Part shown: piece after piece, positions 15,901-58,700 of the stretch | How positions within the stretch are numbered: the stretch's first letter is position 1 | Layout: each line of letters begins with the position of its first letter | Origin: Arenicola marina | Taxonomy: Eukaryota; Annelida; Polychaeta; Arenicolidae | DNA: 64,000 nt | Assembly: GCA_964019135.1 (NCBI GenBank) | Contig: OZ025255.1 | Coordinates: 43,120,811 to 43,184,810 of the forward strand | Reading direction: 5' to 3' | Program-made: the position numbers and the translations under genes | Notes under the pieces: generated by a model | Told to the model about the DNA's origin: nothing | Databases searched by the model: none | What the model saw: only the letters and a program-made list of their open reading frames with translations

Positions 15901-18290
15901 ACGATGTTAATGAGATACGGAGCCATAACTCACTGATCCCCTACTCCTTGGACACGATGTTAATGAGATACGAACCATAACTCACTGATACCCTTCTACT
16001 TGGGCACGATGTTAATGAGATACGGAGCCATAACTCACTGATTCCCTACTCCTTGGACACGATGTTAATGAGATACGGAACCATAACTCACTGATTCCCT
16101 ACAGCTTGAACACAACGTCAAAGAGATACGAGCCATAACTCACTGATCTCTGCTACTTGGGCACGATGTTAATGAGATACGGAGCCATAACTCACTGATT
16201 CCCTTCTACTTGGGCACGATGTTAATGAGATACGGAGCCATAACTCACTGATTCCCTACTCCTTGGACACGATGTTAATGAGATACGGAGCCATAACTCA
16301 CTGATTCCCTACTCCTTGGACACGATGTTAATGAGATACGAGCCATAACTCACTGATTCCCTACTCCTTGGGCACGATGTTAATGAGATACGGAGCCATA
16401 ACTCACTGATTCCCTACTCCTTGGACACGATGTTAATGAGATACGAGCCATAACTCACTGATTCCCTACTCCTTGGGCACGATGTTAATGAGATACGGAG
16501 CCATAACTCACTGATTCCCTACTCCTTTGACACGATGTTAATGAGATACGAGCCATAACTCACTGATTCCCTACTCCTTGGGCACGATGTTAATGAGATA
16601 CGGAGCCATAACTCACTGATTCCCTTCTACTTGGGCACGATGTTAATGAGATACGGAGCCATAACTCACTGATTCCCTTCTACTTGGGCACGATGTTAAT
16701 GAGATACGAGCCATAACTCACTGATTCCCTTCTACTTGGGCACGATGTTAATGAGATACGGAGCCATAACTCACTGATTCCCTACTCCTTGGGCACGATG
16801 TTAATGAGATACGAGCCATAACTCACTGATTCCCTTCTACTTGGGCACGATGTTAATGAGATACGGAGCCATAACTCACTGATTCCCTTCTACTTGGACA
16901 CGATGTTAATGAGATACGAGCCATAACTCACTGATTCCCTACTCCTTGGGCACGATGTTAATGAGATACGAGCCATAACTCACTGATTCCCTTCTACTTG
17001 GGCACGATGTTAATGAGATACGGAGCCATAACTCACTGATTCCCTACTCCTTGGACACGATGTTAATGAGATACGAGCCATAACTCACTGATTCCCTACT
17101 CCTTGGGCACGATGTTAATGAGATACGGAGCCATAACTCACTGATTCCCTACTCCTTGGACACGATGTTAATGAGATACGAGCCATAACTCACTGATTCC
17201 CTTCTACTTGGGCACGATGTTAATGAGATACGGAGCCATAACTCACTGATTCCCTACTCCTTGGGCACGATGTTAATAAGATACGGAGCCATAACTCACT
17301 GATTCCCTACTCCTTGGACACGATGTTAATGAGATACGAGCCATAACTCACTGATTCCCTTCTACTTGGGCACGATGTTAATGAGATACGGAGCCATAAC
17401 TCACTGATTCCCTACTCCTTGGGCACGATGTTAATGAGATACGGAGCCATAACTCAGATTCCCTACTCCTTGGACACGATGTTAATGAGATACGAGCCAT
17501 AACTCACTGATTCCCTTCTACTTGGACACGATGTTAATGAGATACGGAGCCATAACTCACTGATTCCCTACTCCTTGGGCACGATGTTAATAAGATACGG
17601 AGCCATAACTCACTGATTCCCTATTCCTTGGACACGATGTTAATGAGATACGAGCCATAACTCACTGATTCCCTTCTACTTGGGCACGATGTTAATGAGA
17701 TACGGAGCCATAACTCACTGATTCCCTACTCCTTGGGCACGATGTTAATGAGATACGGAGCCATAACTCACTGATTCCCTACTCCTTGGACACGATGTTA
17801 ATGAGATACGAGCCATAACTCACTGATTCCCTACTCCTTGGGCACGATGTTAATGAGATACGGAGCCATAACTCACTGATTCCCTACTCCTTGGACACGA
17901 TGTTAATGAGATACGAGCCATAACTCACTGATTCCCTTCTACTTGGGCACGGTGTTAATGAGATACGGAGCCATAACTCACTGATTCCCTACTCCTTGGA
18001 CACGATGTTAATGAGATACGGAGCCATAACTCACTGATTCCCTTCTACATGGGCACGATGTTAATGAGATACGGAGCCATAACTCACTGATCCCCTACTC
18101 CTTGGGCACGATGTTAATGAGATACGAGCCATAACTCACTGATTCCCTTCTACTTGGGCACGATGTTAATGAGATACGGAGCCATAACTCACTGATTCCC
18201 TTCTACTTGGGCACGATGTTAATGAGATACGGAGCCATAACTCACTGATTCGTAAATCCTTTGAAACAACGTCGATGAGATAAGAACCAT
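6916..18290. repeat. 11.4-kb satellite of 52/53-bp units
   Basis: About 216 tandem units containing GAGCCATAACTCACTGATTC, a CTACTCCTTGG segment and CACGATGTTAATGAGATACG. Units are 53 bp with ATACGGAGCC and 52 bp with ATACGAGCC, and the two types often alternate. Rare marked units (CAGCTTGAACAC near 7220, 7690, 8530, 9845, 11268, 14680 and 16100) show higher-order organisation of about 1.42 kb, and a block offset of about 4.83 kb. Outer units are the most diverged. No open frame or RNA gene seen. Confidence 0.98.
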
Positions 18291-22273: not shown

Positions 22274-25200
22274 GTAAGTACATGAAGGATTGTCTTATAA
22301 AAACCGGTTTAAAATTGCATTTTAAATTTTTATTTTGTGTTCGACTGTTTTTCTGTGCCGCCGTGGGAAACTTTTGCTGACCGCATGGCAGGCTTGTAGA
22401 TATAAATGAAAATCACTATTATTTTCGGGTTTAAAGTTTGTTAAGCTTATCAAAGAATAATACTCTAACCATAAAAGTCAAATTATTTTCACATTGACCC
22501 TAATAATGTTAGCAGGTTAGCCCCCTTTGGCGGCGGCTGCCAGCCTACCAGTGATTATTAGATTTAAAGTTGCATATCATTATCAAGCCTGCCTGAACCT
22601 CTAGCTTAAAATGCAAACAATTTGTGTCTACTTTGCTTCCCTTTTCAGACCACTGGCTTGCTGGGAGGACCCAAATATGGCAGTGAAAATGTAGAAGGAG
22701 CACTAAACAAGGCTGCCATTGGCAAGCCGAGGAGGACTGCAGTCAGCCAGCGTGCTGCTTTAGGAGAAATCAGCAACAAAGCAGCTGTAAAAAAAGTTAG
22801 TTTTGTTTTGTTACACCCCTTGAGCCAGTATTGAGGTTACCATAAAGCCATAACATTCTGGGTGCGCACTTGGCGCAAGTGCCCCCAGGCAAGCCAGCTT
22901 CTCTAGGGGCACAACGTCAACCACAGGCACAGTAAATCAGTGGAGGGGGAGGGGGGTAGGGGGCCCCACAACGCATACTAAAGACACAAGGTGTCCAACT
23001 CCCGCTCGAAGTGAGCGACAGGCACCCGCTTCAACCCCCAATATCGCACCTTTACCGCGCTTGACGGGCCCAGTAAATGCCTAAGTCTGATTTCTAAGTA
23101 ATTTATTTATTTCATCAAAAAGTAAATGAGACATGTACTGCCGTCTAGCCGCGACAAATAAAGAATTATGCAACGACAACAACCAACTCCAGAACAGATT
23201 GAGCAAAAATGGCTGACATCGCGAGAATTCGCCTGCAAGATCTCAGGCACAGTGCACACTATGACGATTGGTCAGCTTTCACATGACGCTCATGTGGGGA
23301 GGTACTCCTAAATTGATTAATCACATCATAGGGAGATGCTATTCTAATGTTCGTCCTGATTCAACAAATTTTGAAGTTGCATCCCCTGTGTCACGTGACA
23401 TATTTTTCGACTGCCAACCAATCAGATTAATCTCGCTGACTGATGTCAGCCATTTTTGCTCAATCTGTTCCGGAGTTGGTTGTTGTCTTTGCATAATTCT
23501 TTATTTGTCGCGAATACACGGCAGTACAGGTCTCGTTTACTTACTGATGAAAGAAATAATTTACTTAGATATCGGACTTAGGCATCTATGGGGCCCGTCA
23601 AGCGCGGTAAAGGTGCGATAGTGGGGGTTGAAGCGGGTGCCTGTCGCTCACTTCGAGCGGGAGTTGGACACCTTTTAATATGCGTTGTGGGGCCCCCTAC
23701 CCCCCCGGCCTCCCCCCTCCACTGATTTACTGTGCCTGTGACGTCAACGGTAACAGTGTTATAATCCTTTCAACGTTAGTACGGAATCGAATGTAGCTTT
23801 TATTATAATGTGGGCGCGTACAATAATAGTGCTTACGTATTCTATATGCCTTGTTATATCTTCTGACATCAAGAAAAGGTCAACACTAGATTGTTGCAGT
23901 CATATTTTCATGAACAAATGTTGGAGCATGCAACTTTTCCCTACCAACCGCCATGCATATGCAGCGCTAGCCCTGGTACATGCCTCTCTGACCACGCCCG
24001 TAAACGGAGCTAGTGTGAGAGCCATGCCGCTGACACGGCCGAAAACAAGAAATCAGCAGAAATCACGGACCGGTGGCTTAAGTTGAAGTTCATAACAGAA
24101 AAAATATACTAATGTCAAAGGATTTTAACATTGTTACCGTTGTGCCCCTAGAGAAGCGCTTGCCTGGGGGCACTTTTGCCAAGGTGCGCACCAGCCATTC
24201 GCCATATTGCCAGTGGCAAAAGCCAACTGTATGTAGATTGGCCCATGCGTGTCACCACAGGCACAGTGGCAAAAACGAAACAAAAATGGCCTAGTTTTTG
24301 ATAAACTATCAAAACATGATTTTGCGAAACTGATTGCCTGCAGTGATGCGGAGGGGGGAAATACAACATATATGTGGCTAATGGGATATGTGTGTGGCTA
24401 AAGAAAATTGAAGGTGTTTAGCCACAGTAGCTAATTAAAATGAGTTGCTAAAACACACCCACGCATTACTTTTGTGAATAAATATTGTGCCCTGTGCATG
24501 TGATGAGAACCAACACAAAATATTGAAGTCTTGTTTTTCATGCATAGTTGCATCTATTGATGTTATAAAATAATTTCCTTTTCACTATTTCAGGTTTCGA
24601 AGGATGAGGTTTCCACAAAGCCCAGTCGGGTGCCCATCACCAAAGGCAAGCTTGCCGAGGCCACCAATACCCACCGGCAGGTGAGCAAGCTGAAACAAGA
24701 GGCTGCTCGCCTCCCGAAGGTAGAGAAGAAGGTGGAGAAGGTGGAAGAGCCCCAGTCGCCCATGCCGATGGACATGAGCGCAAACTCCATGGGCGAGGAG
24801 GCCTTCTCCAAGCAGCTCCTGGCTCTCAACGTGCAGGACATCGACAAGGACGACCACGACAACCCCCAGCTGGTCTCTCAGTACGTCAATGACATCTACG
24901 AGTACATGCGCAGCCTGGAGAGGATGTACCCCATCAAGCTGCACTACTTGGACGGCATGCAGGTGAACAGTCGCATGAGGGGCATCCTCATAGACTGGCT
25001 CATCCAAGTCCACCTCCGCTTCCACCTGCTGCAAGAGACTCTCTACCTTACCGTCGCTATCATCGACCGGTTCCTGCAAGTAAGTACCCGGTCCCTGAAA
25101 GCATAAACCTGACAAAAACATGTCCACACAATGTTCTTGTATTCACGAATTTGACTGCATTTGAGGAAACACTCCTGGCATATGCACTGTTTCTCTCTAT

Positions 25201-26301
25201 ATGGATAATTGTGAGCTGATTATGATATAATTGATTGGTTTATCACCAGGTACAAGAAGTTTGCCGTCAGAAGCTGCAGCTTGTGGGTGTGACTGCCATG
25301 CTGATCGCCTCGAAGTATGAAGAGATGTATGCCCCAGAAATCGCCGATTTCGTGTATATCACAGACAATGCCTACAGCAAGTTAGACATCCGCAAGATGG
25401 AATGTCACATGCTCAAGACACTGGACTTCAACCTCGGCAGACCGCTACCCCTGCATTTCTTGCGAAGGAACTCCAAAGCTGGAGAAGTGAGATTTCTTAC
25501 GTTTTGTTATCTTCGGTTATTGGAACTGGAGCATTTTTTCTTCCGCTTATATTTAGATAGAGGTCTTAGGATTATGAGCCAGTTATTCAGGCCAGTATGT
25601 ATTAAAGGTGCGTATTGCCTATGATGAAGAGGGTCCGGTGAGTTAAAATGCAATTTGAGTGCCATTCCAGTTAATAAGCTGTTTTCATAAATTGTTCATC
25701 AATATGAAGTACGAACAGATCGAGCTGAGGTTTAGGTTGTCACTATATTCTATGGGTCACCGTTGACGTTGCAGGTTGATGCCACGAAGCACACTCTGGC
25801 CAAGTACCTGATGGAGCTGACGCTAGTAGACTACGAGTCTGTCCACTTCGCGCCGTCTCAGGTGGCAGCCGCGGCCCTCTGCTTCTCCATGAGGCTGCTC
25901 GACAACGCTGACTGGGTAAGTACCACCCTTGGTCCGTCCTCGGCTGATTCGAACCTTATCATTGCTTACATTGATTCGTAATAAAGAAATTTATAAAATA
26001 CCCGGAAGATATCAGTCATTGAGCAAACGATAAATATAATTTGTAATTAGTTTTCCCTTTAAGCGTTTATGGCTAATTTGTTGCGTTGTTGCAGTCGGAC
26101 ACGCTGAGTTTCTACAGCAAGTACACGGAGTCTGAGCTGCGACCCATCCTGAAGAGACTGGCCGACTTGCTGCAGAAAGCCGGCACCGGTAAACTGACGG
26201 CCATCAAGACCAAGTACCAGAGCTCCAAGTTCATGAAGATCAGTCTGCTTCCCGAGCTGCAGTCTAAAATAGTCGCTGAAATGGCGCAAGCGGAGTCCTA
26301 G
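22247..26301 (+). CDS. CCNB: Cyclin B, six coding exons, 414 aa
   Basis: G2/M cyclin that activates CDK1. Joined exons: 22247-22273, 22649-22795, 24594-25079, 25250-25486, 25775-25915 and 26095-26301. All junctions are phase 0 with GT-AG borders. The start follows TGAAGC and gives MAALSRYNA. Residues 44-52, RAALGEISN, are a destruction box for APC/C-dependent proteolysis. The cyclin N-box holds MRGILIDW (186-193) and [11 protein letters not shown]; the C-terminal box begins around [13 protein letters not shown]. Length is normal for cyclin B (about 400-430 aa). The lysine-rich linker at residues 97-109 is expected to be disordered. No frameshift or missing catalytic-partner residue is visible. 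Cyclin B1/B2 type fits better than B3. The gene is convergent with the KHDC4-like gene. Confidence 0.96.
22649..22795 (+). CDS. CCNB: Cyclin B coding exon 2 (destruction box)
   Basis: 49 codons between CTTTTCAG and GTTAGT. It starts [11 protein letters not shown] and carries the D-box RAALGEISN. Donor GTTAGT is weaker than the others in the gene. Confidence 0.92.
22922..23740. mobile_element. Foldback TIR element with 8-bp TSD
   Basis: 819-bp element flanked by identical 8-bp direct repeats ACGTCAAC (22914-22921 and 23741-23748). Its ends are inverted, starting CACAGGCACAGTAAATCAG, and the inverted arms extend about 300 bp each (to about 23222 and from about 23440), leaving a ~215-bp centre. 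An 8-bp target duplication suits hAT-type transposition. No transposase frame, so non-autonomous. It lies in cyclin B intron 2 and is probably removed by splicing. Confidence 0.83.
23960..24062 (+). mobile_element. Short interspersed repeat, copy A
   Basis: The stretch with CATGCCTCTCTGACCACGCC, followed by GTAAACGGAGC and GAGAGCCATGCC, is repeated in inverse orientation at about 62448-62522. Two copies 38 kb apart in introns or flanks of different genes indicate a dispersed repeat. Family unknown. Confidence 0.65.
24594..25079 (+). CDS. CCNB: Cyclin B coding exon 3 (cyclin box start)
   Basis: 162 codons between TATTTCAG and GTAAGT. It holds the basic/acidic linker, the region homologous to the cytoplasmic retention segment, and the cyclin signature [13 protein letters not shown]. 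The junction to the next exon lies after DRFLQ. Confidence 0.96.
25250..25486 (+). CDS. CCNB: Cyclin B coding exon 4
   Basis: 79 codons between ATCACCAG and GTGAGA. Includes [20 protein letters not shown] and [19 protein letters not shown], which join the N- and C-terminal cyclin folds. Translation past 25486 is intron read-through. Confidence 0.96.
25775..25915 (+). CDS. CCNB: Cyclin B coding exon 5
   Basis: 47 codons between GTTGCAG and GTAAGT. Encodes C-terminal cyclin fold helices, including [20 protein letters not shown]. Confidence 0.95.
26095..26301 (+). CDS. CCNB: Cyclin B last coding exon
   Basis: 68 codons plus TAG, after GTTGCAG. Encodes the end of the C-terminal cyclin fold ([20 protein letters not shown]) and a terminal [15 protein letters not shown]. 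Confidence 0.95.
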   Translation, partial: SDTLSFYSKYTESELRPILKRLADLLQKAGTGKLTAIKTKYQSSKFMKISLLPELQSKIVAEMAQAES

Positions 26302-34731: not shown

Positions 34732-37700
34732 CTGCTAGAGGGGGTGACAGACGGGTCAGTGAGAGCCCGGGCTGCCGAGCTGGGGGGCAGAGTCTGGGCG
34801 CTGGGTCGCGTGTACACTCGTGTACACACACACACATACATACATGGTCATATCTCCACACCTACAACACAGTCATCGAAACGACGCACACAACACGCCT
34901 CGTCTGTGCAGAAAACCAGGGATGAAAATAGAATTAAGTTGTTCAGAGACAAACAAAATCTTCATTATATATCGATATTCTATATATATACGTGAATACA
35001 TTGCACATATATATATAAATATGCACCCTGGCGTGGGACATTGCAGGTCGGGGTCGGCAGTTAAGCCTAGAAGCTATCAAAACATGAGAGTAATGAGAGA
35101 GTGTCGGAGAGTGGCCGTGGGTAGGCAGGGCGACGGTCCAGGGTGGCGGCGAGCGAGCCACCGCCAGCGGCCGGAGAGGGGCCCCCCGGGGGCCCCGGGG
35201 GAGGGGCCTGCGGGGAGGGGGCCGTCCGTCACACAGCCGCCAGCGGCACCCTGGCCTAGCTGTCCTCATCCTCGTCAGACTCGGCGCCATAGCTGGCTGC
35301 AAGAGAAAAGAGAAAGTCACCCGGTTAGACGCTCCACCAGAGCTCCGCAGGCCTCCAGCCGCCACGCACCAACACACCCCTCCCCGCCCCATCTCTCCCC
35401 CCCCCCCCCCACACCCTACCTAATAGACCCAGACTGACGCCGCATACAGGCTAAGCCAACAGGTGTCGGCACCCACTGATGTATTAAAAAGCCAAATCGT
35501 AGCATCGTACAAACCTTGTAAGTGTAAGTATGAAATGAACACTGCAGTACATTACCGGAACCCCGTACCACGTGCCAGTCTACATACATCCCAGGCTGGT
35601 ATATAACCAAATCCACTACACATACAGGACGTCCAGATTGTGGAGCACATGTTAAATGGTCACCCTGGTGAACACATGGGGGCTACACCTGACGCAGACT
35701 TCCGTGGCCCCACACGACATACCCCTGCCCCCTGCCTAATAATGCCAGGTGGTGGTCATGGTCTGGGTCATACAGCCAGGGAGTGAACAAGCGTGTCAGT
35801 GGCACGTGGAGGCCATCTCGATGCCCCGGGCTCGCCAGGCGGACCCTCCAGTGCCGTGCCCGCCGCGTACAGAGTCACCATGCTACAGGCCCAGTCTCCG
35901 GCGCCTCTGGTCAGTGTCGTCACCCGGAGGACAATACGAACTACGTCCAGCAGCTTGTTGCATTCAATCATATAAGAGGCTAATGACTTCATGCCTGGGA
36001 CATGTGTGGGGTCGATACCACCTTAGACCCGGCTACCGCATTGAATATTATCTAGCAGTGTCACATAAAGTAAAGACTAAATCAATTAGAAAAAAAAATG
36101 ATCCGGAAATATTTCTCAAAATAAAAGTGTATTTACATACACAACATATCAGTTATATTAATAAAATGGTTAACATCTCGCTAAAGCCTCTTGATATGTT
36201 AGGAAACAAGCCACCGGACAGCAACGTTATTGTAATTACCATCGTCATAAAAAGTACACTGGGTTCGTTTGTCAGTCTGCAAGATCGAAGGAAAGCAATA
36301 ATATTAATAATGGTTGAAGGGGGGGGGGGGGGGGGGGGAGCGGTGTCTGGAAAGAACAAAAACCCATCCTGGGGTGGACAGGTGGTCTCGGCCCGTGGTG
36401 CAGAATCTCGCGATCCGGACAGCTCCAGATGGATGAACAGATGACTGCGCGCCAGAGCAACCTCCAACAAACCTATAACACAGGGGTAGAGGCTCTCACA
36501 ACAAACGGTGAGGGGAGAACAGTAAAATCGTGCAAGTAGCCGAAAAGGAACCAAATAAGCTTCTGTGACGCCAAGCCGTGCGGCGATGGCAGAGAAGGGC
36601 CTTTCCATCCAGGTACCCTGGTCTCGGCCAAGGTACTGAGGAGGAGGCATTGGCTCATCCCTCACATTACCTAAAAATTAGCGTCATACCAACATATTTC
36701 TGTACAACGGATATATTATCATTTCCGCAACACACCGCCTTGATTGTCGTTGCCCCCCCCCCCCCCCCGGCCACCTATACCCTATCCACCTATGACAACT
36801 CAGGTACAACATGCGAAGGCGTCAATCCCTTGGAGCACGCCCCTTATGGTTTAGCTGGGTGTCTGTTTAGTGTTCATAGCCAACAGTTACAGTTGCGGTA
36901 GGCGCGGAGGCAGAGCGGAATGAGAACGAGGCTGATCAACCTACCGACGACATCCCCCAGTGCGCCCTTGGCCTTCTTCCTGATTGGCTGGTTCCGGTCG
37001 GTAACTGCAACACAATAAACCATCAGATCAGAATCTGGCAGTCTCCGCCCTACGTCTTCGTGAACTAACCCCCGTAGACCCTCTGTCACTGATATAACAA
37101 GGACGCAATAGTCACAGGAAAAAGTGTTCATAATCTGGAAGTATCCTTTCTATGTCTTCGTGAACTAGCTCCTGTAGACCCTCTGTCACAGACATAACAA
37201 GGACGCAATAGTCACGCATTAGGTACTTAGAGTAACTTCAAGAATCTGGAATCACCCGCGGTAGGTCTTCGTGAACTACCTCCTGCGGACCCTGGAGATG
37301 TCACTGATACAAGAATGATGTAAAAGCAAGGCGTCAGGCACATAGACTCGTGGGACACCTGTCTATATATACAGAGCCCAGACCTACCTTTGAACGCTGC
37401 TGGCGGCATCAGCTGGATGTCGTGCTCGTAGGACACCTGTCTATATATACAGAGCCCAGACCTACCTTTGAACGCTGCTGGCGGCATCGGCTGGATGTCG
37501 TGCTCGTAGGACACCTGTCTATATATACAGAGCCCAGACCTACCTTTGAACGCTGCTGGCGGCATCAGCTGGATGTCGTGCTCGTGGGACACCTGTCTAT
37601 ATATACAGAGCCCAGACCTACCTTTGAACGCTGCTGGCGGCATCAGCTGGATGTCGTGCTGGTAGGACACCTGTCTATATATACAGAGCCCAGACCTACC

Positions 37701-40700
37701 TTTGAACGCTGCTGGCGGCATCAGCTGGATGTCGTGCTCGTAGGACACCTGTCTATATATACAGAGCCCAGACCTACCTTTGAACGCTGCTGGCGGCATC
37801 AGCTGGATGTCGTGCTCGTGGGACACCTGTCTATATATACAGAGCCCAGACCTACCTTTGAACGCTGCTGGCGGCATCGGCTGGATGTCGTGCTCGTGGG
37901 ACACCTGTCTATATATACAGAGCCCAGACCTACTTTTGAACGCTGCTGGCGGCATCAGCTGGATGTCGTGCTCGTGGGACACCTGTCTATATATACAGAG
38001 CCCAGACCTACCTTTGAACGCTGCTGGCGGCATCAGCTGGATGTCGTGCTCGTGGGACACCTGTCTATATATACAGAGCCCAGACCTACCTTTGAACGCT
38101 GCTGGCGGCATCGGCTGGATGTCGTGCTCGTAGGACACCTGTCTATATATACAGAGCCCAGACCTACCTTTGAACGCTGCTGGCGGCATTAGCTGGATGT
38201 CGTGCTCGTGGGACACCTGTCTATATATACAGAGCCCAGACCTACCTTTGAACGCTGCTGGCGGCATCAGCTGGATGTCGTGCTCGTAGGACACCTGTCT
38301 ATATATACAGAGCCCAGACCTACCTTTGAACGCTGCTGGCGGCATCAGCTGGATGTCGTGCTCGTGGGACACCTGTCTATATATACAGAGCCCAGACCTA
38401 CCTTTGAACGCTGCTGGCGGCATTAGCTGGATGTCGTGCTCGTGGGACACCTGTCTATATATACAGAGCCCAGACCTACCTTTGAACGCTGCTGGCGGCA
38501 TCAGCTGGATGTCGTGCTCGTAGGACACCTGTCTATATATACAGAGCCCAGACCTACCTTTGAACGCTGCTGGCGGCATCAGCTGGATGTCGTGCTCGTG
38601 GGACACCTGTCTATATATACAGAGCCCAGACCTACCTTTGAACGCTGCTGGCGGCATTAGCTGGATGTCGTGCTCGTGGGACACCTGTCTATATATACAG
38701 AGCCCAGACCTACCTTTGAACGCTGCTGGCGGCATCAGCTGGATGTCGTGCTCGTAGGACACCTGTCTATATATACAGAGCCCAGACCTACCTTTGAACG
38801 CTGCTGGCGGCATCAGCTGGATGTCGTGCTCGTGGGACACCTGTCTATATATACAGAGCCCAGACCTGCCTTTGAACGCTGCTGGCGGCATCAGCTGGAT
38901 GTCGTGCTCGTGGGACACCTGTCTATATATACAGAGCCCAGACCTACCTTTGAACGCTGCTGGCGGCATCAGCTGGATGTCGTGCTGGTAGGACACCTGT
39001 CTATATATACAGAGCCCAGACCTACCTTTGAACGCTGCTGGCGGCATCAGCTGGATGTCGTGCTCGTGGGACACCTGTCTATATATACAGAGCCCAGACC
39101 TACCTTTGAACGCTGCTGGCGGCATCAGCTGGATGTCGTGCTCGTGGGACACCTGTCTATATATACAGAGCCCAGACCTACCTTTGAACGCTGCTGGCGG
39201 CATCAGCTGGATGTCGTGCTCGTGGGACACCTGTCTATATATACAGAGCCCAGACCTACCTTTGAACGCTGCTGGCGGCATCAGCTGGATGTCGTGCTCG
39301 TGGGACACCTGTCTATATATACAGAGCCCAGACCTACCTTTGAACGCTGCTGGCGGCATCAGCTGGATGTCGTGCTCGTGGGACACCTGTCTATATATAC
39401 AGAGCCCAGACCTACCTTTGAACGCTGCTGGCGGCATCAGCTGGATGTCGTGCTCGTGGGACACCTGTCTATATATACAGAGCCCAGACCTACCTTTGAA
39501 CGCTGCTGGCGGCATCAGCTGGATGTCGTGCTCGTAGGACACCTGTCTATATATACAGAGCCCAGACCTACCTTTGAACGCTGCTGGCGGCATCAGCTGG
39601 ATGTCGTGCTGGTAGGACACCTGTCTATATATACAGAGCCCAGACCTACCTTTGAACGCTGCTGGCGGCATCGGCTGGATGTCGTGCTCGTGGGACACCT
39701 GTCTATATATACAGAGCCCAGACCTACCTTTGAACGCTGCTGGCGGCATCAGCTGGATGTCGTGCTCGTGGGACACCTGTCTATATATACAGAGCCCAGA
39801 CCTACCTTTGAACGCTGCTGGCGGCATCAGCTGGATGTCGTGCTCGTGGGACACCTGTCTATATATACAGAGCCCAGACCTACCTTTGAACGCTGCTGGC
39901 GGCATCAGCTGGATGTCGTGCTCGCTCTTCGACACCGCCAGGTCAGGGGGTGGGGGTGGGGGAGGCATCAACGTCCGATCACGCTCAGGGTCCTGTTCTC
40001 CCGTCCTAAAACAATGCCCGATCCAGTCTAATTACACACGGCGGGAGGTTGAGCAACGTGTTCCAGTATGTGAATCAGGCGTCTCACGGGTAATCACCTC
40101 GGGCTGTATTCAGAATCCACACGCAGCTTACGCACTTTAAGTCTTAGCCTCACCAGCTCATTGCGGTGGTGCTCATGATAAGAAAAAATCCTCTTCGATA
40201 TAATTTTCTTCCTTCGGAAAATCCACCTATTGGGCGACGGCTTATGTATTTTTTTAACCCGATAATCGCTCGACAAATCTTCCACCTAGCGTCTATTGGA
40301 CGTAGTCTAAGAGGCGATGCTGAATACGGCCCCTCAAGCTGTATTCATTATCCGTATTTACAGCTGCGCAAACCTTACGTAGAGTATAGTTAACATTTAC
40401 TCAGCAGATTAACTGTCTGAATCAGGAAATTAAACGTTTCGTTGGGATTGCGATAGCATGGCTTCCAGCTATGGCCAAATAGTGCTTTAAATTAATGTCA
40501 TGTCTCACATACAAAATGCCTTTGATTTACATTCTCAATCCCGCAAGTCACGTTTTCTTTTTGCAGTTGAAATGTAAATGGCATTAAAAGCCAGCGGCTT
40601 CGGATATTGCAACCACGTGGCAGGGTTGTGATGGTGGGTCCCCCGCGTGGTGTCGCCAAGCACCAATGTTACCTGCGTGGGTCGGCCTGGGTGGACGCCA

Positions 40701-43700
40701 GGGTGGTCACCGTGGTGGTACCGTTGACGGTGACGGTGAGGCCCGTAGTGCAGACTGGTGGCGGGGGTGGCTTATTGTTGGTAACCATGGTAGCCAGATG
40801 GGGCGGGCCGTGCTGCGCAAGAGGAAATATACAATCCAGTCAGATAGTATGAAAGTGCGAACTCATTTTGCGATGTTATGATTTTATTTTGCTATTTTGG
40901 TTGTTAATTGTTTGGAAGTTACAAAACCTACGAGACTTCCAACCTTTCTCACACAAACCTCCATCCAGCCTGATAATAAATACTCGTTGCGAGCGTTTTA
41001 ATTCTGCTATATATGAGTATTTTATCTATGCAATGACAGTATGTGTATGAGCAGCTTTAAGACTACCTAGTAGTGCTGTATGGGCAGCTTTAAGACTACC
41101 TAGTAATTCTGTATGAGCAGCTTTAAGACTACCTAGTAATGCTGTATAAGTAGCTTTAAGACTACCTAGTAATGCTGTATGGGCAGCTTTAAGACTACCT
41201 AGTAATGCTGTATAAGCAGCTTTAAGACTACCTAGTAGTGCTGTATGAGCAGCTTTAAGACTACCTAGTAATGATGTAGGAGCAGCTTTAAGACTACCTC
41301 GTAATGTTGTATGAGCAGCTTTAAGACTACCTAGTAATGATGTAGGAGCAGCTTTAAGACTACCTAGTAGTGCTGTATGGGCAGCTTTAAGACTACCTAG
41401 TAATGCTGTATGAGCAGCTTTAAGACTGCCTAGTAGTGCTGTATGGGCAGCTTTAAGACTAACTAGTAATGCTGTATGAGCAGCTTTAAGACTACCTAGT
41501 AATGATGTAGGAGCAGCTTTAAGACTACCTAGTAGTGCTGTATGGGCAGCTTTAAGACTACCTAGTAATGCTGTATGAGCAGCTTTAAGACTACCTAGTA
41601 ATGATGTAGGAGCAGCTTTAAGACTACCTAGTAGTGCTGTATGGGCAGCTTTAAGACTACCTAGTAATGCTGTATGAGCAGCTTTAAGACTACCTAGTAG
41701 TGCTGTATGAGCAGCTTTAAGACTACCTAGTAATGATGTAGGAGCAGCTTTAAGACTACCTCGTAATGTTGTATGAGCAGCTTTAAGACTACCTAGTAAT
41801 GATGTAGGAGCAGCTTTAAGACTACCTAGTAGTGCTGTATGAGCAGCTTTAAGACTACCTAGTAATGCTGTATGAGCAGCTTTAAGACTACCTAGTAATG
41901 ATGTAGGAGCAGCTTTAAGACTACCTAGTAGTGCTGTATGGGCAGCTTTAAGACTACCTAGTAATGCTGTATGAGCAGCTTTAAGACTGCCTAGTAGTGC
42001 TGTATGGGCAGCTTTAAGACTAACTAGTAATGATGTAGGAGCAGCTTTAAGACTACCTAGTAGTGCTGTATGAGCAGCTTTAAGACTACCTAGTAGTGCT
42101 GTATGAGCAGCTTTAAGACTACCTAGTAATGCTGTATGAGCAGCTTTAAGACTACCTAGTAATGATGTAGGAGCAGCTTTAAGACTACCTAGTAGTGCTG
42201 TATGGGCAGCTTTAAGACTACCTAGTAATGCTGTATGAGCAGCTTTAAGACTGCCTAGTAGTGCTGTATGGGCAGCTTTAAGACTAACTAGTAATGCTGT
42301 AGGAGCAGCTTTAAGACTACCTAGTAGTGCTGTATGGGCAGCTTTAAGACTACCTCGTAATGTGGTATGAGCAGCTTTAAGACTACCTAGTAATGCTGTA
42401 TGAGCAGCTTTAAGACTACCTAGTAGTGTTGTATGGGCAGCTTTAAGACTACCTAGTAATGATGTAGGAGCAGCTTTAAGACTACCTCGTAATGTTGTAT
42501 GAGCAGCTTTAAGACTACCTAGTAATGATGTAGGAGCAGCTTTAAGACTACCTAGTAGTGTTGTATGGGCAGCTTTAAGACTACCTAGTAGTGCTGTAGG
42601 AGCAGCTTTAAGACTACCTAGTAGTGCTGTATGGGCAGCTTTAAGACTACCTAGTAGTGCTGTATGGGCAGCTTTAAGACTACCTAGTAGTGCTGTATGA
42701 GCAGCTTTAAGACTACCTAGTAATTCTGTATGAACAGCTTTAAGACTACCTAGTAATGCTGTAGAAGCAGCTTTAAGACTACCTAGTAATGCTGTATGGG
42801 CAGCTTTAAGACTACCTAGTAGTGCTGTATGAGCAGCTTTAAGATTACCTAGTAATTCTGTATGAACAGCTTTAAGACTACCTAGTAATGCTGTATAAGC
42901 AGCTTTAAGACTACCTAGTAATGCTGTATGAGCAGCTTTAAGACTACCTAGTAGTGCTGTATGGGCAGCTTTAAGACTACCTAGTAATGCTGTATGGGCA
43001 GCTTTAAGACTACCTAGTAATGCTGTATGGGCAGCTTTAAGACTACCTAGTAGTGCTGTATGGGCAGCTTTAAGACTACCTAGTAGTGCTGTATGAGCAG
43101 CTTTAAGACTACCTAGTAATTCTGTATGAACAGCTTTAAGACTAACTAGTAATTCTGTATGAACAGCTTTAAGACTACCTAGTAATGCTGTATAAGCAGC
43201 TTTAAGACTACCTAGTAATGCTGTATGGGCAGCTTTAAGACTACTAGTAGTGCTGTATGGGCAGCTTTAAGACTACCTAGTAGTGCTGTATGAGCAGCTT
43301 TAAGACTACCTAGTAGTGCTGTATGAGCAGCTTTAAGACTACCTAGTAGTGCTGTATGAGCAGCTTTAAGACTACCTAGTAGTGCTGTATGAGCAGCTTT
43401 AAAACTACCTAGTAGTGCTGTATGAGCAGCTTTAAGACTACCTAGTAATGATGTAGGAGCAGCTTTAAGACTACCTAGTAGTGCTGTATGAGCAGCTTTA
43501 AGAACACATATCAATGCTGTATGAGCAGCTTTAAGCATACCTGGTAGCCCAGCAGGTTGTCCGGCAGTTTCTCTTCCTGCTTCTCTTCCGTGAACCGTCG
43601 CTTGCGTTCCTCGCGTGCGTCCTGGCGCCACGTGGCCGATGACGTCACAGTGGGCGCGCCGCCGGTGGAGGCGGCGCTGGGTACGTACTGACTGTAGTAC

Positions 43701-46700
43701 GTCTGTCCCGAGGGACGGCTGCCGGGGACACACACCGGGGCGCCCACCCCGGGCCCGCCGCCGCCGCCGCCGCCGAACTGCTGGCCCAGGGGTGGGGGCT
43801 GACCGCCGGGGAGGCCCTGGGGCTGGGGCTGGGCCTGCTGCGGGGGTAGGGCGTGCTGGTGGTGGCCCGGCGGGGGGTGGCCCATTCCGCCCTGCATCAT
43901 CCCCTGTTGTTGTTGATGCTGTTGCTGTTGTTGCTGCTGCTGCTGCTGTTGTTGCTGTTGTTGTTGGTGGTGGTGGTGTTGGTGTTGTTCCAAGGTCATG
44001 TGTGGCGGGTGGGTTTGGAAGAGCTGTCCGGGCGGTCCGGGCGGTCCGGGCATGGGGCCGTCTATGGTCGTCACGGCGACCGGGGCCCCGCCGTCCGGCT
44101 GGTTGACAAGGAACACGTGCTGCCCAGGCCCCGGCTGCAGTAGTGGACCTCCAGGCTGGCCGGGCGCCTGCATGGGCTGCATGTGGGGGTGGGGGGGAGC
44201 ACATTGCTGGGGTGGCGGCATGGGCTGTAGGTGCTGCATGGCAGCGGGCGGGGGCTGGCCCAGCATCGGCCCCTGGTTCGGCCCCCCAGCCTGCGACACG
44301 GCCACGGCGGTGAGGGGCTGGCCGGGCAGCCCCTGGGTGAGCTGCATCATCCCCCCCGGCGGGTGCCCCCCCATGCCGGGCGCCAGGGACATGATGGGGC
44401 CCCCCGGGAGGGTCATCATGGGGGAGCTGACGGAGACGTGGACGGGGTAGGGGCCGTGGCCGGGCGCGGACATGGGGATGGGCGCCTGCTGCATGCCCAT
44501 GGGAGGCTGAACCATGCTGGTCATGGGCTGGGCGAACGACAACGATGTGCCCGGGTGGCCTAGAGCCAGGCAAGTCACTGGAAGGAAGCCAACACACAGC
44601 AGCTCAATTCAAACTGTTACATAACAGATTTACTTCCCTGACACATCATAAAGTAAACAAGTTTTCTCGATATTTTTCACGATACTGGCCTACAGTTTTC
44701 AGCGCTTCGATATTTTTTCATGATACAAGTATATATTAATTGTTGAATAGGTTGAGCCGTTTAGGTGTGGTGGGGGCGTAGTTTTACCGTAGGAATACCG
44801 CAGGGTCACCGTAGGGTTACCGTAGGGCAACCGTAGGGTTACCGCAGGGCAGGGTTACCGCAGAGCAGGGTCACCGTAGGGTTATCGTAGGACAGGGTCA
44901 CCGTAGGGTTATCGTAGGACAGGGTCACCGTAGGGTTATCGTAGGACAGGGTCACCGTAGGGTTATCGTAGGACAGGGTTATCGTAGGACAGGGTCACCG
45001 TAGGGTTATCGTAGGACAGGGTTATCGTAGGACAGGGTCACCGTAGGGTTATCGTAGGACAGGGTCACCGTAGGGTTATCGTAGGACAGGGTTATCGTAG
45101 GACAGGGTCACCGTAGGGTTATCGTAGGACAGGGTCACCGTAGGGTTATCGTAGGACAGGGTTATCGTAGGACAGGGTCACCGTAGGGTTACCGTAGGAC
45201 AGGGTCACCGTAGGGTTACCGTAGGGCAGGGTCACCGTAGGGTTACCGTAGGACAGGGTCACCGTAGGGTTATCGTAGGACAGGGTCACCGTAGGGTTAC
45301 CGTAGGGCAGGGTCGCCGTAGGGTTACCGTAGGGCAGGGTCGCCGTAGGGTTACCGTAGGGCAGGGTCACCGTAGGGTTACCGTAGGGCAGGGTCGCCGT
45401 AGGGTTACCGTAGGGCAGGGTCGCCGTAGGGTTATCATAGGGCAGGGTCGCCGTAGGGTTACCGTAGGGCAGGGTCACCGTAGGTTTACCCAGAACACGT
45501 ACCGATCTCGTAGGATTGTGGCGTGGGTCCCTGGGTGCTGACCGGGGGTAGCTGGGCCGTGGAGTAGGACGCGGGGGGAGGCGGCACGCTGGTGTTGACC
45601 AGCATACTGCCCGGCGGCACTGAGGGGCTCACCGTGCACAGCACTCCTGGAAAGTAAACGGTCGTGGTTTAGGCCACTTTGGTGAACACAAAGAAATGAT
45701 GTTGGATGTTGGGTGATATTTGCCTGCAGCTCAGCCTCATTACCAACTGAGCTACGGAGGCTCCGGGCGAGGGAGGCTTCGAGCTAACGAGGCTCCGGGC
45801 GAGGGAGGCTTCGAGCTAACGAGGCTCTGGGCGAGGGAGGCTTCGAGCTAACGAGGCTCTGGGCGTGGGAGGCTTCGAGCTAACGAGGCTCCGGGCGAGG
45901 GAGGCTTCGAGCTAACGAGGCTCCGGGCGAGGGAGGCTTCGAGCTAACAAGGCTCTGGGCGAGGGAGGCTTCGAGCTAACGAGGCTCTGGGCGAAGGAGG
46001 CTTCGAGCTAACGAGGCTCCGGGCGAGGGAGGCTTCGAGCTAACGAGGCTCCGGGCGAGGGAGGCTTCGAGCTAACGAGGCTCTGGGCGAGGGAGGCTTC
46101 GAGCTAACGAGGCTCTGGGCGAGGGAGGCTTCGAGCTAACGAGGCTCCGGGCGAGGGAGGCTTCGAGCTAACGAGGCTCTGGGCGAGGGAGGCTTCGAGC
46201 TAACGAGGCTCTGGGCGAGGGAGGCTTCGAGCTAACGAGGCTCCGGGCGAGGGAGGCTTCGAGCTAACGAGGCTCTGGGCAAGGGAGGCTTCGAGCTAAC
46301 GAGGCTCTGGGCGAGGGAGGCTTCGAGCTAACGAGGCTCCGGGCGAGGGAGGCTTCGAGCTAACGAGGCTCTGGGCGAGGGAGGCTTCGAGCTAACGAGG
46401 CTCTGGGCGAGGGAGGCTTCGAGCTAACGAGGCTCTGGGCGAGGGAGGCTTCGAGCTAACGAGGCTCTGGGCGAGGGAGGCTTCGAGCTAACGAGGCTCC
46501 GGGCGAGGGAGGCTTCGAGCTAACGAGGCTCCGGGCGAGGGAGGCTTCGAGCTAACGAGGCTCCGGGCGAGGGAGGCTTCGAGCTAACGAGGCTTTGGGC
46601 GAGGGAGGCTTCGAGCTAACGAGGCTCTGGGCGAGAGAGGCTTCGAGCTAACGAGGCTCTGGGCGAGGGAGGCTTCGAGCTAACGAGGCTCCGGGCGAGG

Positions 46701-52700: not shown

Positions 52701-55700
52701 AAGCACAGTTCTCGGTACATCTTAACTGCTGTACAATACAGAAGCCTCCTATATGACTAAATATTTAAACAAATGTATTAATATAATATCACTTATACAG
52801 CTCACCCATTTAACATTTCAAGCATAATAAGTGAGTAATTCCAAGCGCAACAGTAAATCATTTCACAACAATTTAATACAATTACAAATAGGGGGAACCA
52901 TTGAAATAAAAGGCCGAGCGACTGTCATGCAAGATGTGATACACTGCCCGTAGTGTTAAGCTAGACTAATAAGAATTTAAGTCTTTAATTATTGTACCAT
53001 GCATTGTCCTTAGAAGTGGTAATGAACGCATAACATACAGAGGGGCAGCAGAAGTCCTTACATTATACGACCCCTGTATCATAAGACTGCCATCTCGAGA
53101 CGACCACCCCATTGAGGACTACCCACCCACTCCCACATGCAACAACCCGCACAATACGACCACCCGTGTACGCGTGGTCTTACTCTGCTGGCGAAAGGAA
53201 TGTCGTATAATGCAGTGACAACCCTACAGTCCAACAGTTCATCAACTAAATCAAAGCCAACACCGCAATTGTGCAACTCTTTTTTAACATGAAATATATT
53301 GCTGCAGAATAAGTAACTGTACAATTCAGCTTAAACCAATACAATAAGTACAACGACCCCGGACCGCATGCAAGGTGTCGTCACAAGGGATGGGACGAAA
53401 GCTGGCCGGTTTAAACATTGAATCAAGGTTATGACCCTGGTCTGATCAGGAAGCTCGTTGCTGCGGGTACTGATAGAGAGTAGAAATGGATGTGGGTGTT
53501 TGGTGGGGGAGAAGGAAGTGACAGGGGAGAACAGGGCACGGTAGTGGGCGTGAAGGGCGATCGGCGAGTTAAAACAAAATACATTCATGCTAAGAAGGGA
53601 GTCCCATCGTATCAATGCTACAAGCTAAAAACTAGTTAAAATCCTTCAAAATGTGGACTTTTTACATGGTACAACAAATCGTGGGCTTCACGCAGGCATT
53701 TCTGAAAATTATTAAAGGTCATGTCAACAGCATATTATCATATATTAAAGGTCATGTCAACAGCATATTATCATATATTAAGGCTACTGTAACAATAATA
53801 ATTGTAATATATCGAAACGCTTCGGTGTAATACACAGGATGAAGGAGGCCTGTAGCGCGTTGCTATGGGAACGCCAGGGTCAGACTACTTACAGTATGCA
53901 TGAGGTTGACGGCCAGCGTCTTGGCTTGCTGTAACCCAGGTAACGTCGCATGTCTACAACAAACACAGGAAAGAAGGAATCACGTGGCTGTGGCGGTATC
54001 GTGGAGTTCATTGTTTAATGTGAGGCCCCAGTCCTCACCATACAAGGCCGTCTCACCACGCCACGTCAGTGGTTGGTGGAATATTCAGGACGCTTTAACC
54101 ACTTTTGTTCATATTGCGTCAACGGGAGAATGAAGGGAGAGTGGAGCTATGTCCCTGGGGGTAACCCCCTACTCTGCGAAGAAGGACATGGAATCTTTAT
54201 CCTGCGACCACACAGACATGGCCAAAGCGGGGCCCGGACCACCGATCCACGTGCCGTTAGGCTCCCAGGTGGCCAAAACACTCAAGGCGAGCCATCTACC
54301 CCACTTATCTACTGAGCCGGTCACCAGGTTAGTGAAGCGATACCCTGATAGTTATTGCGTATCAACGTAGCTAATAGCCCAAAATAGATGGCTGTATGGC
54401 TAGATTAAATCTTTCAGGCCATCTTTCTACACACGGATTAAATGGAACAATGCGTTGACAGGGTGTTGACAGCTTAAGGCACAGCACACGTGGGATGTGT
54501 ACCCCCAATCAATGGATAGTTATCCCTGTAATAAGCCGGCCGGACACTTACTGGATGTGTATGTGCATTGGCTCGAAGGCTTCTCGTCCAGACGTCTGTT
54601 CGATGAAGCCAGATCCCTTTCCTCGCAGCGTCACCTTCGCACCGGACTCGTTCTGAATATGTTGCAGGTAGGATCCCTGGAACATTAAGCGGTCATGCAA
54701 TTTCCTGAGGATACGTACAGCACACTCGATATTCCCTGATCGCTAAACTTTCTCGCGGAAACTTCACAAAACGCATATTGTCTATCTGAAGCCTCGACAT
54801 CTATCAGCCGGAAAATATGCTTAGGCAGCCTTGAAAACAGGTAGGTAAACAACCAGTGTACTCCCTAAACAGCTTCAGGTCCGAACTGCGTATGATGGAG
54901 ATAATAAATATGTAAAGAAACAAACTGATTGATTACACAACGGTAGACGTTTCATTGCTTCCACCGTTTCGGTGGCATGCTTCATTGCCCAATATGAATA
55001 CTGCAATTGCAGAGAACACTGTCATTGTACTCACCCCATGACCAAACACGTCAGTGTACTCACCCCATGACCAAACACGTCATTGTACTCACCCCAGGAC
55101 CAAACACTGTCATGGTACTCACCCCATGACCAAACACGTCAGTGTACTCACCCCATGACCAAACACGTCAGTGTACTCACCCCAGGACCAAACACGTCAG
55201 TGTACTCACCCCATGACCAAACACATCAGTGTACTCACCCCATGACCAAACACGTCAGTGTACTCACCCCAGGACCAAACACGTCAGTGTACTCACCCCA
55301 TGACCAAACACGTCAGTGTACTCACCCCATGACCAAACACGTCATTGTACTCACCCCAGGACCAAACACGTCAGTGTACTCACCCCATGACCAAACACGT
55401 CAGTGTACTCACCCCATGACCAAACACGTCAGTGTACTCACCTAATGACCAAACACGTCAGTGTACTCACCCCATGACCAAACACGTCATTGTACTCACC
55501 CCATGACCAAACACGTCATTGTACTCACCCCATGACCAAACACGTCAGTGTACTCACCCCATGACCAAACACGTCAGTGTACTCACCCCATGACCAAACA
55601 CGTCAGTGTACTCACCCCATGACCAAACACGTCAGTGTACTCACCCCATGACCAAACACGTCAGTGTACTCACCCCATGACCAAACACGTCATTGTACTC

Positions 55701-58700
55701 ACCCCATGACCAAACACGTCAGTGTACTCACCCCATGACCAAACACGTCAGTGTACTCACCCCATGACCAAACACGTCAGTGTACTCACCCCATGACCAA
55801 ACAAGTCAGTGTACTCACCCCAGGACCAAACACGTCAGTGTACTCACCCCAGGACCAAACACTGTCATTGTACTCACCCCATGACCAAAACGTCAGTGTA
55901 CTCACCCCATGACCAAACACGTCAGTGTACTCACCCCATGACCAAACACGTCAGTGTACTCACCCCATGACCAAACACGTCAGTGTACTCACCCCATGAC
56001 CAAACACGTCAGTGTACGCACCCCAGGACCAAACACTGTCATGGTACTCACCCCATGACCAAACACGTCATTGTACTCACCCCATGACCAAACACGTCAG
56101 TGTACTCACCCCATGACCAAACACGTCAGTGTACTCACCCCATGACCAAAACGTCAGTGTACTCACCCCATGACCAAACACGTCAGTGTACTCACCCCAT
56201 GACCAAACACGTCAGTGTACTCACCCCAGGACCAAACACGTCAGTGTACTCACCCCATGACCAAACACGTCAGTGTACTCACCCCATGACCAAACACGTC
56301 AGTGTACTCACCCCATGACCAAAACGTCAGTGTACTCACCCCATGACCAAACACGTCAGTGTACTCACCCCATGACCAAACACGTCAGTGTACTCACCCC
56401 ATGACCAAACACGTCAGTGTACTCACCCCAGGACCAAACACTGTCATGGTACTCACCCCATGACCAAAACGTCAGTGTACTCACCCCATGACCAAACACT
56501 GTCATGGTACTCACCCCATGACCAAAACGTCAGTGTACTCACCCCATGACCAAACACGTCAGTGTACTCACCCCACGACCAAACACGTCAGTGTACTCAC
56601 CCCATGACCAAACACGTCAGTGTACTCACCCCAGGACCAAACACTGTCATGGTACTCACCCCATGACCAAAACGTCAGTGTACTCACCCCATGACCAAAC
56701 ACGTCAGTGTACTCACCCCAGGACCAAACACTGTCATAGTACTCACCCCATGACCAAAATGTCAGTGTACTCACCCCATGACCAAACACGTCAGTTTACT
56801 CACCCCAGGACCAAACACTGTCATTGTACTCACCCCTGGACCCAGCACTGTCATTGTACTCACCCCTGGACCCAAAACTGTCAGTGTACTCACCCCAGGA
56901 CTAAACACTGTCAGTGTACTCACCCTTGGACCCAGCACTGTCAGTGTACTCACCCCAGGACCAAACACTGTCAGTGTACTCACCCCTGGACCCAGCACTG
57001 TCATTGTACTCACCCTTGGACCCAGCACTGTCAGTGTACTCCCCCCAGGACCAAACACTGTCAGTGTACTCACCACTGGACCCAACACTGTCAGTTTACT
57101 CACCCCTGGACCCAGCACTGTCAGTGTACTCACCCCAGGACCAAACACTGTCATTGTACTCACCCCTAGACCCAGCACTGTCGGTGTACTCACCCCTCGA
57201 CCCAACACTGTCAGTGTACTCACCCCTGGACCCAGCACTGTCAGTGTACTCACCCCTCGACCCAGCACTGTCCGTGGACTTACCCCTAGACCCAGCACTG
57301 TCGGTGTACTCACCCCTCGACCAAACACTGTCAGTGTACTCACCCCCGGACCCAGCACTGTCGGTGTACTCACCCCTCGACCCAACACTGTCAGTGTACT
57401 CACCCCCGGACCCAGCACTGTCAGTGTACTCACCCCCGGACCCAGCACTGTCAGTGTACTCACCCCTAGACCCAGCACTGTCAGTGTACTCACCCTTGGA
57501 CCCAGCACTGTCAGTGTACTCACCCCTCGGCCCAGCACTGTCAGTGTACTCACCCCTCGACCCAGCACTGTCAGTGTACTCACCCCTCGACCCAGCACTG
57601 TCCGTGGACTTACCCCTAGACCCAGCACTGTCGGTGTACTCACCCCTCGACCAAACACTGTCAGTGTACTCACCCCCGGACCCAGCACTGTCGGTGTACT
57701 CACCCCTCGACCCAACACTGTCAGTGTACTCACCCCCGGACCCAGCACTGTCAGTGTACTCACCCCCGGACCCAGCACTGTCAGTGTACTCACCCCTAGA
57801 CCCAGCACTGTCAGTGTACTCACCCTTGGACCCAGCACTGTCAGTGTACTCACCCCTGGACCCAGCACTGTCGGTGTACTCACCCCTCGACCCAACACTG
57901 TCAGTGTACTCACCCCTGGACCCAGCACTGTCAGTGTACTCACCCCTCGACCCAACACTGTCAGTGTACTCACCCTTGGACCCAGCACTGTCAGTGTACT
58001 CACCCCCGGACCCAGCACTGTCAGTGTACTCACCCCAGGACCAAACACTGTCATTGTACTCACCCCTAGACCCAGCACTGTCGGTGTACTCACCCCTCGA
58101 CCCAACACTGTCAGTGTACTCACCCTTGGACCCAGCACTGTCAGTGTACTCACCCCTCGACCCAACACTGTCAGTGTACTCACCCTTGGACCCAGCACTG
58201 TCAGTGTACTCACCCCCGGACCCAGCACTGTCCGTGGACTTACCCCCGGACCCTACACTGTCAGTGTACTCACCCCTCGGCCCAGCACTGTCCGTGGACT
58301 TACCCCTGGACCCAGCACTGTCGGTGTACTCACCCCTCGACCCAGCACTGTCGGTGTACTCACCCCTCGACCCAGCACTGTCGGTGTACTCACCCCTCGA
58401 CCCAGCACTGTCGGTGTACTCACCCCTCGACCCAGCACTGTCGGTGTACTCACCCCTCGACCCAGCACTGTCGGTGTACTCACCCCTCGACCCAGCACTG
58501 TCGGTGTACTCACCCCTCGACCCAGCACTGTCGGTGTACTCACCCCTCGGCCCAGCACTGTCAGTGTACTCACCCCTAGACCCAATACTTTGTCTTTCAC
58601 ATTGAATGAAGGAGGGGCGTGTTCAAGTCCAATGAACAACTTCTCTTGAACAACTGGTATCTGAATGAGAAGGAGACATTTAGTCTGGTATCATAATGTT

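Follow-up and report, generated by a model that had tools for sequence, protein, structure and literature searches.

In a KHDC4-like gene, the splice donor of exon 14 is spanned by a tandem array of 33 units of 78 bp; the gene lies in a 64,000-nucleotide stretch of the genome of the annelid Arenicola marina (contig OZ025255.1, positions 43,120,811 to 43,184,810 of assembly GCA_964019135.1; hereafter the window, to which coordinates refer). Judging from its sequence, the array is probably a recently expanded, boundary-spanning minisatellite of the kind called "mirage" in lancelets, in which the exon-proximal donor would be the normal one, the other donors would act as decoys and the reading frame would stay open by chance. 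Arrays across splice donors were also found in other genes of this genome, and their apparent density is the most notable part of the present analysis.

Anatomy of the 78-bp array

The array occupies positions 37347..39923 on the minus strand, and each of its units consists of 40 nt of exon end followed by 38 nt of intron start. The first-pass annotation had divided the unit into 41 exonic and 37 intronic bases, a count recovered by adding one further base of the common CGAG, 40 being the exonic share counted from the array edge. Exon 14 (39884..40005, minus strand) is 122 nt long, is entered in phase 2 and left in phase 1, and has a TAG acceptor, a GTAGGT donor (GT at 39883-39882) and a frame continuous with that of its neighbours. 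The peptide read at the junction made by this first donor resembles a human motif, QLMPPPAF followed by VT. Exon 15 (36945..37004, minus strand) is entered in phase 1, the phase in which all array donors exit, so that in-frame joining is possible from any of them.

The earlier description of 33 tandem in-phase donors, with first and last separated by exactly 32 x 78 bases without indel or stop and each able to join exon 15 in the same phase, holds for the number of units, the spacing (78 in 32/32 intervals), the phase arithmetic and the frame, which is open across all 33 units. The donors are not all identical: 31 read AAAG/GTAGG, one reads AAAA/GTAGG (37934) and one AAAG/GCAGG (38870). GT is thus found in 32 of the 33 units and GC in one, and the array combines a tandem repeat across an exon/intron boundary, its unit made of exon end and intron start, with splice signals inside the units, as in mirages. 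With AGCGAG closing the left flank and CACGAGTCTATG at the right end, a CGAG match bounds the original 78 bp on both sides. When 456 bp of the array were searched against the whole assembly (867 Mb, 762 contigs), at least nine matches were obtained, every one of them within this same array. The intron also holds, just upstream of the exon 15 acceptor, 1.9 copies (86%) of a 100-bp unit (37028-37215).

The host gene and its other arrays

The gene was reconstructed as 15 coding exons on the minus strand, with boundaries placed by eye and joining scripted; joined, they give a single open frame, 859 codons long, with GT after each exon and AG before each internal exon other than exon 13, which begins 12 nt too late in the joined chain, a CAG preceding CACGGCCCGCCC. 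For the first 321 residues, Pfam returns the families KH-I_KHDC4-BBP (PF22675, E 7.2e-40) and KH_12 (PF23469, E 9.6e-28), and the top sequence match in PDB is 2yqr, KIAA0907 (E 6e-36). By this KHDC4/BBP-type KH domain, the predicted gene is KHDC4-like.

Two further arrays of this gene span donors. A 30-bp array (55015..58576, minus strand) begins at the donor, GTGAGT, of exon 6 (58574..58660, minus strand, ending KVLGLG); about 52 units of 30 bp are followed by units of 28-30 bp in which the frame is lost, and among its 115 GGTGAGT sites ten donors are in frame before the first stop. A 33-bp array (41044..43546, minus strand), nearly every unit of which carries an in-frame stop, begins at the donor, GTATGC, of exon 12 (43541..44577, minus strand, ending LLGYQ). 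A 27-bp array (44851..45490, minus strand) starts about 13 nt past exon 11, close to its donor without spanning it. Exons 1-14 have 14 donors, and arrays of 30, 33 and 78 bp therefore span three of these, a share not significantly different from the 10/80 donor sides of the survey described below (p 0.40).

Boundary-spanning arrays elsewhere in the genome

Exon ends were surveyed in two gene families, the CCT chaperonins and the kinesins. Ends of matches to profile hidden Markov models were taken as exon ends in order to avoid selection by eye. For CCT, 40 of 49 matches per side were picked before fetching; intronless-looking matches and the outer side of any terminal exon were excluded. For kinesins, we took the first 40 of 133 matches in table order (on a large contig, free of stops, ending no later than profile position 303 and in an open frame shorter than 200 codons), and acceptor sides came from the first 20 of those 40. 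Between 270 and 460 nt were viewed past each exon end, and stretches without a clear splice site stayed in the denominators (e.g. donor sides L045, L117 and L127; acceptor sides L098 and L107).

Spanning arrays were present at 5/40 CCT donor sides (L042, L043, L048, L051, L065) and at 5/40 kinesin donor sides (L113, L122, L132, L135, L144), or 10/80 when pooled (95% interval 7-22%). On acceptor sides they were present at 2/40 CCT exons (L090, L091) and 1/20 kinesin exons (L162), or 3/60 pooled; the difference between donor and acceptor sides is not significant (p 0.15). The three acceptor arrays, with periods of 68, 34 and 32 bp respectively, are the mirror image of the donor arrays. L132 was called spanning by eye, its 38-bp row in the Tandem Repeats Finder (TRF) output beginning at 75 and its 160-bp row at 31. 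The weakest of the thirteen spanning arrays are L043 and L091, which overlap the exon by about 6 and about 4 nt respectively. Scored as non-spanning were L149, which begins at the match end, L092, with 1.9 copies, and L151, which ends before the acceptor.

The position of array starts was examined over the same 80 donor-side stretches, with periods below 20 excluded. Ten of the 22 starts fall in the exon tail (40 nt for CCT, 36 nt for kinesins), which makes up about one tenth of the length (p 2e-5, or 1e-3 with 150 nt per intron part counted as blind). About 0.5 exon-tail starts would be expected from the array density of random stretches, in a loose comparison given that the random sample had stricter TRF limits. 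That sample consisted of 18 fixed-position stretches of 10 kb, in which 30 arrays (TRF period of at least 20, at least 4 copies, score of at least 150) occupy 28% of 180 kb. By eye, the arrays of two random stretches, L009 (period 68) and L026 (period 53), prolong an apparent coding exon across its donor, and in a third, L011, an array of period 68 fills the entire 10 kb with a unit that reads as exon end plus donor. Over 39 arrays at any location, a set that includes arrays far from exons, enrichment of the donor consensus is weak, with at least 8/9 positions matched in 4/39 (1.5 expected) and at least 7/9 in 11/39 (8.6 expected). Arrays are apparently anchored at splice donors, in the same direction in both gene families, the samples being small and the exon ends defined by the models.

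Frame keeping and substitutions

The donor arrays of CCT and kinesin genes mostly break the frame. Reading on from the first donor, 9/10 meet no second same-phase donor ahead of a stop in the viewed stretch, L132 reaches one more, and none of the ten is open and in phase throughout. Only L048 has a main period divisible by three, and it also has 64- and 65-bp spacings; a proportion of 1/10 is not significant (p 0.18). The array of L011 comprises 146 units of 68 bp without an indel and, 68 not being a multiple of three, indel-free spacing needs no selection on frame. The first-pass annotation had left the cause of the indel-free periodicity undecided between very recent amplification and purifying selection on frame. 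Amplification is now favoured, whereas the argument for frame selection fails on this 68-bp control.

Six distinct substitutions distinguish units 2-33 of the 78-bp array, of which 4 are nonsynonymous and 2 synonymous in the read-through peptide. The expected proportions are 72% and 25%, with all possible changes counted and transitions weighted double. The substitutions therefore look neutral and fit a recent amplification in which the peptide was unconstrained. By a simple estimate, a 78-bp unit of such composition would have an open frame with a chance of about 0.19; in the actual unit 3/6 frames are open. The open frame of this young array is probably due to chance.

Origin of the array and weighing of the alternatives

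A simple course of events can be proposed for the 78-bp array. A 78-bp stretch over the exon 14 donor, flanked by CGAG in the exon and CGAG in the intron, would have been duplicated, and the duplicated unit would then have expanded through slippage or unequal exchange. The exon-proximal donor at 39884 would yield the normal mRNA, the remaining donors being near-identical intronic decoys, leakage being confined, if there is any, to the nearest few, and the open frame would arise from a period divisible by three by chance together with a short stop-free intronic part. In the CCT and kinesin genes the normal message presumably comes from the exon-proximal donor, because use of a distal donor would mostly disrupt the mRNAs of these conserved genes. 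By analogy, use of the exon-proximal donor is most likely in the KHDC4-like gene as well.

Several observations weigh against this account. Donor sequences hardly differ along the 78-bp array and offer no basis for preferring the first. In-frame run-on is seen in 2/3 arrays of the KHDC4-like gene vs 1/13 others, a difference that does not reach significance (p 0.07). Of six arrays measured, three have a donor 9-mer more uniform than the remainder of the unit (variation of 0.7% vs 7.3% in L026, 2.6% vs 8.2% in the 30-bp array and 2.4% vs 5.8% in the 33-bp array), which could mean that the donors matter; the remaining 3/6 lack this contrast and, the units being non-independent, neither outcome amounts to a test. 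Finally, L011 is array throughout its 10 kb, and its exon is inferred from the unit alone.

Compatible with a minisatellite origin is a leakage of the type known from human IFI6, in which the first donor would be the main one and the next one to three would be used enough to give proteins that differ in length by multiples of 26 residues. The donors and open frame of the 78-bp array permit this, and the analogy with IFI6, where according to the passages seen in PMC4526556 two downstream repeat units are used as donors, makes it plausible. In 9/10 surveyed arrays of other genes, however, such leakage would break the frame or hit a stop, and we regard it as a serious possibility with the odds somewhat against it. 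A bolder proposal is that a process linked to splicing or to splice sites repeatedly makes donor arrays, which were seen at about 1/8 of the donors surveyed, and that the three arrays of the KHDC4-like gene, which would encode a splicing factor and in which two of the arrays run on in frame, vary its C-terminal tail or sense the splicing state; this seems unlikely. The built-in length dial read into the array by the first-pass annotation, here taken as controlled use of many donors, adding 0 to 32 copies, with a frame kept by selection, can point to the 32 spacings of 78 without a stop and to the in-frame run-on of 2/3 arrays in this gene vs 1/13 elsewhere (p 0.07). The length of the C-terminus could also matter, given that, in the parts of PMC3483155 consulted, the C-terminal tail of human Blom7alpha/KHDC4 is described as binding Prp19 and its C-terminal region as needed for nuclear retention. 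Against it stand the youth of the array and its neutral nonsynonymous to synonymous ratio (4:2), the equally indel-free array of period 68, the stops in the 33-bp sister array and the similar structures in other genes, found at 10/80 donor sides with the frame mostly broken. A purpose-built length switch is therefore not indicated; a length dial is possible but unsupported, and in the controlled, selected form it is very unlikely.

The entire array might be coding, with only the last donor in use, as its frame is open throughout, but 31 GT donors and one GC donor precede the last, the substitutions look neutral and 832 residues would be inserted; we give this next to no credence. Alternatively, the assembler might have produced the length or the uniformity of the array, and a run of N adjoining a 45-bp array at L020 suggests that arrays are hard to assemble in this genome. 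Dispersed variants occur among the 78-bp units in several combinations, however, and boundary arrays occur in several genes, which makes an artefact highly improbable. The reading that best accommodates the evidence is still that of a recently expanded minisatellite across the exon 14 donor.

Other genomic observations

Two large arrays lie in the window outside the KHDC4-like gene, at 1-2919 (43 bp x 68) and 6946-18251 (105 bp x 108). Open frames on the plus strand at about 24561-26300 look by eye like cyclin B and would be a gene neighbouring the KHDC4-like one. At about 54350-54120 lies a diverged copy of a dispersed repeat, GGTAGCTCAGTGGGTTAGAGCGCTCG-like, that also occurs in L016, L055, L066 and L127 and is by eye perhaps a short interspersed element derived from a tRNA. 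On contig C3, mostly between 45 and 57 Mb, dozens of protein kinase matches each take in most of the domain within a single open reading frame of about 270-380 codons; these kinases are probably intronless and would represent a large family expansion on one chromosome. At C5:5402476-5437356, five equal-scoring kinase matches about 8.5 kb apart form a tandem array of whole genes. On seven small contigs (C443, C465, C504, C330, C652, C390, C536), TAG and TAA occur in frame within kinase and kinesin matches; these contigs may stem from a ciliate, as contaminant or symbiont, in which the stops are reassigned. A search with GFP found no match in the genome, nor in the control genomes, and is therefore uninformative.

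Host lineage and relation to known systems

Mitochondrial genes were placed by search (cox1), by ARAGORN (tRNAs), by eye (other proteins) and by position between tRNAs (rRNAs). Their order includes cox1-N-cox2, cox3-Q-nad6-cob-W-atp6-R, rrnS-V-rrnL, nad1-I and nad3-S1-nad2, with a sixth cluster reading H-(unfetched)-F-E-P-T-nad4L-nad4, in which nad5 would fall in the unfetched end. Six clusters are listed as conserved in annelids in the portion of PMC2667193 available to us; five of them are whole here, and the sixth is whole apart from nad5. A lancelet host is ruled out by this annelid gene order, a result that bears on common descent and not on the kind of structure.

Human IFI6 (6-16) carries a minisatellite with a short unit of 12 bp. 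This repeat lies at an exon end, and two downstream units serve as donors, giving three mRNAs (Turri 1995, as cited in the passages seen of PMC4526556). The likeness to the 78-bp array lies in an exon-end tandem repeat with donor units, which in the 78-bp array are predicted donors. Among annelids, earthworm metallothionein genes contain minisatellites in intron 1, with monomers averaging 178 and 181 bp; these too are intronic, but in the parts of PMC12783039 seen they are not placed across a donor.

The closest relatives in structure are the mirages of lancelets, repeats across exon/intron boundaries described, in the portions of PMC3087553 and PMC3902484 consulted, from Adh3, troponin C, the globins BflGb6 and BflGb9, and PGBD5. 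They lie at donors or acceptors, have units of about 10-160 bp, many with splice signals, and reportedly leave regular splicing undisturbed. The 78-bp array shares with them a boundary-spanning repeat with splice signals and fits their structural definition as given there. It differs in belonging to another phylum, to a genome where such arrays reach tens to more than 100 units and span 10/80 surveyed donor sides, and in being open and in phase over its full length. In the open-licence literature searched, mirages are reported from lancelets and were not seen outside them. If the survey holds genome-wide, these arrays constitute a large natural experiment on how the spliceosome settles on a single 5' splice site when dozens of nearly identical ones lie side by side, and would also inform the gain and loss of introns through boundary duplications. 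Mirages would then occur in a second phylum, clustered at splice donors.
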